Below, piece after piece: positions 17,134-18,033 of a stretch of DNA of 64,000 nucleotides (positions within the stretch are counted from its first letter, which is position 1; each line of letters starts with the position of its first letter). The position numbers and the translations under genes are program-made. This DNA comes from Erythrobacter dokdonensis DSW-74. GTDB lineage: Bacteria; Pseudomonadota; Alphaproteobacteria; Sphingomonadales; Sphingomonadaceae. A model generated the notes under the pieces. The model ran no database searches. It had not been told where the DNA came from and worked only from the letters and a program-made list of their open reading frames with translations. The stretch is taken from NCBI RefSeq assembly GCF_001677335.1, contig NZ_LZYB01000001.1:682001-746000 (forward strand). The letters are read 5' to 3'.

Positions 17134-17616
17134 TCAGGCCGCGTTGGTCTGACTATTGTCATCGCCCTCCACCGGAACGGCGCTGAGGCGGGCCGCGCCG
17201 TTGATGGCGATCTTCTTGGGCTTCATCGCCTCCGGCACTTCGCGCACCAGATCGATGGTCAGCAGCCCGTCGGCCAGATCGGCGCTTTCAACGCGCACGA
17301 AATCGGCCAGTTCGAAGCGGCGCTCGAACCCGCGATTGGCAATCCCGACATGGATCAGTTCCGAGCCGTCGGCGGCTTCCTCGCGCTTGCGACCCTGCAC
17401 TACCAGAAGGTTCTGCTGCGCGGTGATGTCGATGTCCTGCGGGCGGAAACCGGCCACCGCAAGGGTGATGCGGTAATTGTCGTCGCCGCTACGCGAGATG
17501 TTAAAAGGGGGATAATTGTCGCCCGCGTTGAGCCGCGCCTGGTTCTCGAGCAGGTCGAACAGGCGATCGAAGCCCACGGTGCTGCGGCGATAGGGAGTGA
17601 AATCGAAACGTGACAT
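17134..17616 (-). CDS. Small heat-shock protein, Hsp20/IbpA family
   Basis: ATP-independent holdase that binds unfolding proteins. It has 160 residues. An N-terminal arm (FDFTPYRRSTVGFDRLFDLL) precedes the alpha-crystallin domain (about 40-130; YPPFNI, FRPQDIDI, GLLTIDL), and an IxI-type C-terminal motif is seen in KKIAI. The start ATG at 17616 follows AGAGGA at 17626-17631 with a 9-nt spacer. That ribosome site lies inside a hairpin resembling a ROSE thermometer, and a heat-shock-sigma-like promoter lies further up, so control by temperature is likely at two levels. Confidence 0.93.
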   Translation of the reverse strand: MSRFDFTPYRRSTVGFDRLFDLLENQARLNAGDNYPPFNISRSGDDNYRITLAVAGFRPQDIDITAQQNLLVVQGRKREEAADGSELIHVGIANRGFERRFELADFVRVESADLADGLLTIDLVREVPEAMKPKKIAINGAARLSAVPVEGDDNSQTNAA

Positions 17617-17724
17617 TGATGCAAATCCTCTTGTTCGAGCAATTTGTTTCCTGATGCAGGCCTGCCGGATGCAGCACCCGCCTTGCCGCCGTTGCGTTCC
17701 CCGAGACTGGCGGAACGCGGCGAC
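17617..17724 (-). ncRNA. ROSE-like RNA thermometer in the hsp20 leader
   Basis: The last hairpin before hsp20 (minus strand, 17643 to 17625) reads AUUGCUC, loop GAACAA, GAGGAU. The UUGCU strand pairs with the AGGA of the ribosome site, leaving one G bulged, which is the hallmark of ROSE elements that control small heat-shock genes in alphaproteobacteria. Further up the leader, GCGTTCC/GGAACGC (17694-17700 and 17712-17718) forms a strong hairpin. The 5' limit is inferred from the putative promoter. Confidence 0.7.
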
Positions 17725-17730
17725 AGGCAC

Positions 17731-17760
17731 TATCTGGTTTGCGACTTTTCCGCTTTCAAG
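17731..17760 (-). promoter_or_regulatory. Putative RpoH (sigma-32) promoter of hsp20
   Basis: On the minus strand CTTGAAA (17760-17754) is followed after 17 bp by CAGATA (17736-17731). The -35 matches the heat-shock sigma consensus well; the -10 is approximate. It lies between hsp20 and the divergent grxC, overlapping the grxC ribosome-site region. Confidence 0.45.
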
Positions 17761-17769
17761 AGGAACCCG

Positions 17770-18033
17770 ATGCCCGCCCCGCAGATCGACATCTACACCA
17801 AGTTCGGCTGTCCCTATTGCGTGCGCGCCAAGCGCCTGCTCGACCAGAAGGGCGCCAGCTATCAGGAATATGACATCACCATGGGCGGCCCGAAGCGTCA
17901 GGAGATGCTGGAGCGCGCACCCAACGCGATGACAGTGCCGCAGATCTTCATCGGCGAGGTTCACGTGGGCGGATCGGACGATCTTGCCGCGCTGGAACGC
18001 GAGGGCAAGCTCGACGCCTTGCTGGCGGGATAG
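17770..18033 (+). CDS. grxC: Glutaredoxin 3
   Basis: Small thiol-disulfide oxidoreductase that uses glutathione. It has 87 residues. The dithiol active site is Cys14-Pro-Tyr-Cys17, followed by the cis-Pro segment TVPQIFIG and the glutathione-binding VGGSDDL. ATG at 17770 follows AAGAGGAACCCG. It sits upstream of the nitrilase-family gene (14-bp gap) and a DUF1178 gene, a grxC-amidase-DUF1178 order frequent in alphaproteobacteria. Confidence 0.96.
   Translation: MPAPQIDIYTKFGCPYCVRAKRLLDQKGASYQEYDITMGGPKRQEMLERAPNAMTVPQIFIGEVHVGGSDDLAALEREGKLDALLAG

Follow-up and report, generated by a model that had tools for sequence, protein, structure and literature searches.

A ROSE-like leader and a heat-shock promoter upstream of hsp20 in Erythrobacter dokdonensis: a probable RNA thermometer on a diverged branch of the family

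Whether the small heat-shock gene hsp20 of Erythrobacter dokdonensis DSW-74 is preceded by an RNA thermometer, and where among known thermometers such a leader would belong, is the question raised by this locus, which lies on the minus strand of the window (the whole stretch of 64,000 nucleotides that was analysed). A first-pass annotation made from the letters alone had proposed a ROSE-type thermometer behind a heat-shock-sigma promoter, and the sequence-level features of that proposal proved to be present, conserved, and covarying. The best explanation, to which a probability of roughly 0.92 is given, is that a ROSE-like RNA thermometer and an RpoH-type promoter control hsp20 at two levels; by analogy with characterized systems, the leader very probably covers the ribosome site at low temperature and exposes it in the heat. 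The coordinates of the features are collected in Table 1.

Table 1. Features of the hsp20 locus, in positions of the window
Feature	Positions	Strand	Basis or detail
hsp20 (IbpA/HspA-type small heat-shock protein, 160 aa)	17134..17616	-	Pfam PF00011, E 1.4e-17
Predicted 5' leader, three hairpins	17617..17724	-	fold, covariation, model R1
Hairpin 3, the ROSE hairpin	17622..17646	-	UUGCU 17642-17638 vs SD AGGA 17629-17626, bulged G 17640
Hairpin 2 (middle)	17656..17681	-	bulged G 17675 within YGCU/AGG
Hairpin 1, 5'-proximal, G+C-rich, GCGTTCC/GGAACGC	17685..17724	-	bulged G 17711, then CC/GG
-10-like ACCAGATA	17731..17738	-	read from sequence
-35 box CTTGAAA, heat-shock sigma type	17754..17760	-	conserved in related leaders
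Glutaredoxin gene, divergent neighbour	17770..18033	+	PF00462

The encoded protein is 50% identical to Escherichia coli IbpA over 140 aligned positions and is the sole PF00011 match in its own genome at E ≤ 0.001. Among the matches listed, its nearest named relatives belong to Erythrobacter and Porphyrobacter, the E. fulvus protein being 96% identical over residues 1-154. The start codon occupies 17616-17614 on the minus strand. The hsp20 frame remains open through the leader (17616-17964, minus strand) to a GTG at 17964 within the glutaredoxin gene, so that a gene caller might choose a start well ahead of the real one and so mask the leader.

Conservation was assessed on 80 loci from public genome records, which are the best 80 of at least 409 confirmed relatives and are close relatives, and on a further 30 loci from the same genus (114 genomes, with a match in 107). 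The CTTGAAA promoter proposed at the outset was located where it had been placed, at a distance that puts the predicted transcription start near 17724 and gives hsp20 a leader of 108 nt. Its CTTGA core was found between -162 and -124 in all 81 leaders formed by the window and the best 80 of at least 409 relatives, and the full CTTGAAA in 70 of the 81. At the place of the -10-like element, identical or similar letters were seen in many related leaders; the element presumably represents a weaker match to the alphaproteobacterial RpoH consensus. The genome carries an rpoH gene above the curated cut-off (371 bits). The window thus has the sigma-32-type promoter of ROSE-like thermometers, with a weaker -10 match and a start that is predicted.

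Folding of the leader gave -47.5 kcal/mol, compared with -38.1 ± 3.2 kcal/mol for shuffled sequences (z -2.97; 1 of 200 shuffles as good), and the fold of the plus strand of the same stretch was unremarkable (z -0.61). The start codon is unpaired in the predicted structure. The Shine-Dalgarno (SD) sequence lies on the minus strand in a hairpin of the ROSE layout, UUGCU opposite AGGA with one bulged G, just as the first-pass annotation had described, and the GCGTTCC/GGAACGC hairpin that it had noted ahead of this one is likewise present; the middle hairpin, overlooked there, completes the set, and in it the core of the ROSE motif recurs as YGCU/AGG. Taken by itself, the SD hairpin would be modest evidence for hiding of the SD, 40 of 1000 shuffles of its upstream arm hiding the SD equally well. 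That the hairpin is real beyond chance follows from conservation of its motif: AUYGCU..GAGGAU precedes the start in 111 of 111 leader sequences (the window, the best 80 of at least 409 relatives, and the 30 same-genus loci, with the window and several species counted twice).

Removal of G17640 in silico made the leader 3.8 kcal/mol more stable at 37°C (-48.3 kcal/mol with the base, -52.1 kcal/mol without it) and kept the SD closed at all five temperatures tried (25-48°C). In the native hairpin the calculated unpaired fraction of the SD rose slightly, from 0.04 at 25°C to 0.10 at 42°C, and the same calculation gave 0.01 to 0.03 for the validated E. coli ibpA hairpin. Because the latter looks even less labile than that of the window, the calculation neither supports nor refutes thermosensing, and melting curves, which fail even for a validated thermometer, were dropped as proof; the folding at two temperatures that had been suggested as a check is therefore not diagnostic.

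Comparative evidence was more informative. From 72 non-redundant leaders, the 43 with the longer, Erythrobacter-type middle hairpin were picked by eye (29 were omitted) and aligned by sequence alone, structure not being used. RNAalifold recovered the same three hairpins from this 43-row alignment, with pairing in 98.7% of cells, a figure that fell to 31-55% when partners were slid by one to three columns. The covariation score was 0.224, a value reached by none of 500 shuffles (0.157 ± 0.005), and this provides the structural support in related species whose absence the first-pass annotation had named as grounds for abandoning its reading. Cells changed on both sides numbered 42, against 11.6 in shuffles, none of the 500 reaching the real figure. 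Pairs carrying double changes were in only mild excess (6 vs 3.5; 28 of 500 shuffles as high), and a control in which partners were slid by +2 gave 8 such pairs, above the real 6. The double changes sit in hairpins 1 and 2. Hairpin 3 showed no double-sided change among the 43 rows, five of its nine pairs being invariant and four changed on one side only, which is expected since one arm is the SD; support for hairpin 3 consists of near-invariance and one-sided changes. A set of 90 matches aligned with the covariance model R1 described below scored 0.410 vs 0.163, with 17 pairs changed on both sides vs 11.9 in shuffles; this set comprises 88 leaders and two off-target matches and, being structure-fitted, is biased towards the fold. 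The three-hairpin fold, the hidden SD, and the promoter core are thus supported by comparison among related sequences.

The same evidence bears on the reading that conservation reflects a function of the DNA, with divergent hsp20 and glutaredoxin promoters packed into some 150 bp and the RNA fold incidental. The glutaredoxin gene is the divergent neighbour at 80 of 80 related loci (the best 80 of at least 409), where the two start codons lie approximately 148-217 nt apart; in the window its start codon is separated from the -35 box of hsp20 by 9 bp, and any glutaredoxin-proximal promoter would necessarily share its DNA with the promoter and leader of hsp20, so that the two transcripts may overlap antisense. 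Covariation, the retention of the bulged Gs while flanking pairs change, and the weak fold of the opposite strand noted above all argue against this account, which is considered very improbable.

Placement within the ROSE family was examined with Rfam and with a model built for the locus. The Rfam ROSE search that had been suggested found no match at the locus even at E 10: at the gathering score the whole window returned two tRNAs and no ROSE, and at E ≤ 10 the segment 17560-17810 returned four chance-level families, none of them ROSE. The gathering cut-off of RF00435 (45 bits) is an operational test, not a biological definition; none of 20 window-type relatives taken from the 80 exceeded it (best, 36.8 bits), and three of the 20, at 33-37 bits, appeared in the list at E ≤ 1. 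Across the order, a search of 147 genomes with RF00435 gave eight loci, five of them above the cut-off, each of the eight upstream of a gene whose product looks like an Hsp20 and begins with MR; RF00435 matches in sphingomonads reach 56.6 bits.

The covariance model R1 was built from window-type leaders only. It matched all 80 relatives (the best 80 of at least 409), with 38 of these outside its training set and three matches weak (E 0.006-0.014), and it recovered six of the eight order-level RF00435 loci in the same places at E ≤ 0.001; the remaining two were found at E 0.1 (L117) or missed (L118). Since off-target matches were obtained at L056 (E 0.005) and L037 (E 0.26), weak R1 E-values are not to be trusted. 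Sixteen of the 96 listed R1 matches, mostly short or second ones, were read by eye, and all 16 end at an hsp20 start. In the order, R1 matched 89 of 296 genomes at E ≤ 0.001, training genomes included. Class-wide searches, in which the stricter filters applied above 40 genomes were in force, gave few matches for either model (R1, 5 of 289 genomes including the window's own; RF00435, 8 of 289). Homology to the RF00435 loci was thus found by cross-detection through R1 and, RF00435 being blank at the window, membership rests on motif, architecture, and that cross-detection.

One genome of the same genus (G113) holds both kinds of ROSE leader, before two hsp20 paralogues: its window-type leader (L139) matches R1 at E 3e-11 and is absent from the Rfam listing at E ≤ 1, and its second leader (L164), before another hsp20 gene, scores 53.1 bits in Rfam. 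This second hsp20 gene (MRTAFDL...) thus has a ROSE leader of its own that Rfam places above its cut-off. In a quick tree of 65 proteins, which included 41 of the 81 window-type rows, six of the eight Rfam-found genes grouped with L162 and L164, apart from the window gene (SH-aLRT 96), and L118 and L119 remained unplaced on long branches, which weakens the case for Rfam-found and window-type leaders sorting cleanly by paralogue. Judged from R1 cross-detection, the pair in the one genome, and the Hsp20 tree, the window leader is a diverged branch of ROSE adjoining the branch that Rfam knows. To the ROSE family this adds, within Sphingomonadales, a branch with good support that escapes the standard Rfam model, and a model, R1, that is ready for use. 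In the literature consulted, ROSE leaders were described neither for Erythrobacter nor for other sphingomonads, and an earlier listing of sphingomonad ROSE may exist; in the available part of a paper on Hsp17 of Sphingomonas melonis (PMC10434288), ROSE-related terms appear in the reference list only.

For the thermometer and promoter favoured here, the following course of events is proposed. Upon heating, RpoH would transcribe hsp20 from 17760-17731, as the promoter sequence suggests. At normal temperature, UUGCU pairs with the SD, a pairing indicated by comparison, and would thereby keep ribosomes off. A U-G pair, the one bulged G, and A-U pairs would keep the helix weak enough for heat to open it, as in validated homologues. 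We infer heat opening and translation control partly from other species: the SD hairpin of Pseudomonas melts while the first hairpin does not (PMC3669281, available text), and deletion of the bulged G lowers heat induction (PMC11342760, available text). The two upstream G+C-rich hairpins would stay folded and either aid folding of the thermosensor or protect the mRNA, a role suggested by work in Pseudomonas, E. coli, and Bradyrhizobium.

What those upstream hairpins do is described as "not fully understood" in the part of PMC3669281 available. As a scaffold for folding or stability, with a G bulge that acts kinetically, sets the register, and frees the SD arm for UUGCU, they would form the upstream-hairpin part of the best explanation, so that the odds on this role, which we put at about even, are not exclusive of it. 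The same source reports that disruption of the first, unmelted Pseudomonas hairpin causes derepression and that the Bradyrhizobium japonicum ROSE1 element is less responsive when its first three hairpins are removed, both as a scaffold would predict; it also reports that the Pseudomonas SD hairpin alone, lacking hairpin I, is still heat-responsive (9.8- and 8.7-fold), which speaks against one. A scaffold does not by itself explain, moreover, why the bulged base is G, as it is in 220 of 229 single 5'-side bulges of the real leaders and in 178 of 1130 in shuffles.

This bulged G recurs with some regularity. In each hairpin (columns 14, 58, and 99) all 43 aligned leaders have G as the bulged base, followed in every one by a C-G pair and preceded by C-G or U-G. 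In unconstrained minimum-energy folds of the 81 leaders (the window and the best 80 of at least 409), 58 showed three G bulges before C-G, 22 showed two, and one showed a single such bulge; among 1620 dinucleotide shuffles (20 per leader) it occurred not at all in 1516, once in 100, twice in four, and never three times. Two upstream G bulges were present in 69 of the 81, and the bulge of the SD hairpin was folded in 70 of 81, its motif letters being present in all; hairpin 1 of one leader (L116) folds differently. Other alphaproteobacterial ROSE leaders had at least one upstream G bulge in 28 of 32 cases and two such bulges in seven. RF00435 (E ≤ 0.001, with many scores below the cut-off) supplied 35, and R1 two, of the 37 loci from which these 32 derive; five were dropped (four lacking a recognised hsp20 leader and one cut off); starts in this set were chosen by script, some of them upstream of the likely start. 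Outside the class, 30 loci were read and two dropped (start not found), leaving 28 with the motif by a permissive pattern. Two of the 28 (L224 and L229) belong by kinship to the window's class. An upstream G bulge was folded in 12 of the 28 and in 11 of the 26 that remain without those two, which we take for gammaproteobacterial from their likeness to IbpA; most of the leaders had been truncated at -100, an arbitrary limit. An upstream bulged G is thus not supported as universal there. The bulge is not unseen, since the Rfam structure line shows one in the first hairpin, and no paper discussing an upstream bulged G was found in the literature consulted. The new element is a small one: each of the three hairpins carries a G bulge with a C-G pair after it.

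A repeated bulged-G hairpin is a plausible protein site, and in a second reading the leader is both a thermometer and a binding site for Hsp20, which would repress its own translation until drawn off by aggregates. E. coli IbpA binds its own leader and represses its own translation, R93 being essential for binding to the ibpA leader, and both R93 and Y34 show good conservation among alphaproteobacterial IbpAs (PMC10474464, available text); Arg95 and Tyr35 of the window protein align with these residues. The occurrence of three bulges in most window-type leaders and never in shuffles, and their extension to other alphaproteobacterial ROSE leaders, point the same way. The counts come, however, from minimum-energy folds of homologous, non-independent leaders, an upstream bulge was folded in only 11 of the 26 leaders outside the class although self-repression is reported in three gammaproteobacteria, and an SD hairpin alone is fully heat-inducible in Pseudomonas (PMC3669281) and suffices as the SD stem of P. 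stuartii oppF P2 (PMC11342760), as far as the available text of each goes. Autoregulation of this kind is considered unlikely, and slightly less likely still is the specific proposal that a Y-G(bulge)-C-Y / R-G-G hairpin is the repeated element bound by the encoded Hsp20. That element is found once upstream in most of the alphaproteobacterial ROSE leaders examined and twice in the Erythrobacteraceae branch. If Hsp20 did bind there, one leader would sense both temperature, through melting of hairpin 3, and free chaperone, through binding to hairpins 1-3, and the 5'-proximal ROSE hairpins would gain a function.

Variation within hairpin 3 was examined in 101 distinct hairpins from 157 sequences (one, L096, was dropped). 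UCGCU, in which the U-G pair gives way to a stronger C-G pair, was confined to hairpins whose lower stem is weakened (13 of 13, vs 27 of 88 for UUGCU; Fisher 1.5e-6), and the spread of hairpin energies was below that of 5000 of 5000 permutations. On the hsp20 tree of 81, the C of UCGCU changed at least five times, with three supported independent pairs; the partner trait changed the same way in 2.4 pairs on average and never the opposite way, too few for significance. Compensation was incomplete (mean -6.9 vs -5.4 kcal/mol), and four CAG+C hairpins ranged from -8.0 to -9.2 kcal/mol. The pattern is suggestive of tuning of the melting point; because related sequences inflate the association and independent changes are too few, set-point tuning was dropped to a lead.

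Comparison with known systems places the window leader among ROSE-like thermometers, in which U(U/C)GCU and the SD form an imperfect helix with a bulged G (PMC11342760) and leaders of about 60 to more than 100 nt form two to four hairpins (PMC10474464), in the available text of these papers. The window has UUGCU opposite AGGA with a bulged G and, as in classical ROSE members, a small heat-shock gene (PF00011) downstream, and its leader, 108 nt as predicted with three hairpins supported by covariation, falls within that size range. The view of the first-pass annotation that ROSE elements are known mainly from rhizobia is dated: more than 40 candidates in alpha- and gamma-proteobacteria, with Caulobacter, Salmonella, and E. 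coli named, are reported in the available text of PMC3669281. A fourU thermometer, in which four uridines face the SD, is ruled out by the anti-SD sequence UUGCU. ROSE-G also has a UGCU core and, facing the SD arm, a bulged G, but its motif is CUGCU with opposing bulged Gs and it precedes ABC transporter genes (PMC12857270, available text); the UUGCU and lone bulged G of the window likewise rule out ROSE-G identity. The short ROSE-like leader of Pseudomonas ibpA resembles that of the window in pairing U(U/C)GCU with the SD, in its sigma-32 promoter, and in its G+C-rich first hairpin, and differs in having two hairpins in about 60 nt rather than three in 108 nt (PMC3669281, available text). E. 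coli ibpA (L177) resembles the window in its three hairpins and in the bulged G of the pairing with AGGA, where it has UCGCU; hairpin 1 of the K-12 leader, when folded, also shows a bulged G before CC/GG, whereas the bulged G of its hairpin 2 precedes U-A and that of the window C-G. The rhizobial hspA type, RF00435, is likewise the leader of a small heat-shock gene behind a CTTGA promoter, with a bulged G before CC/GG in the first hairpin and UUGCU opposite AGGA with a bulged G in the last; its middle hairpin is an unbulged stem, whereas that of the window carries Y-G-CU/AG-G.
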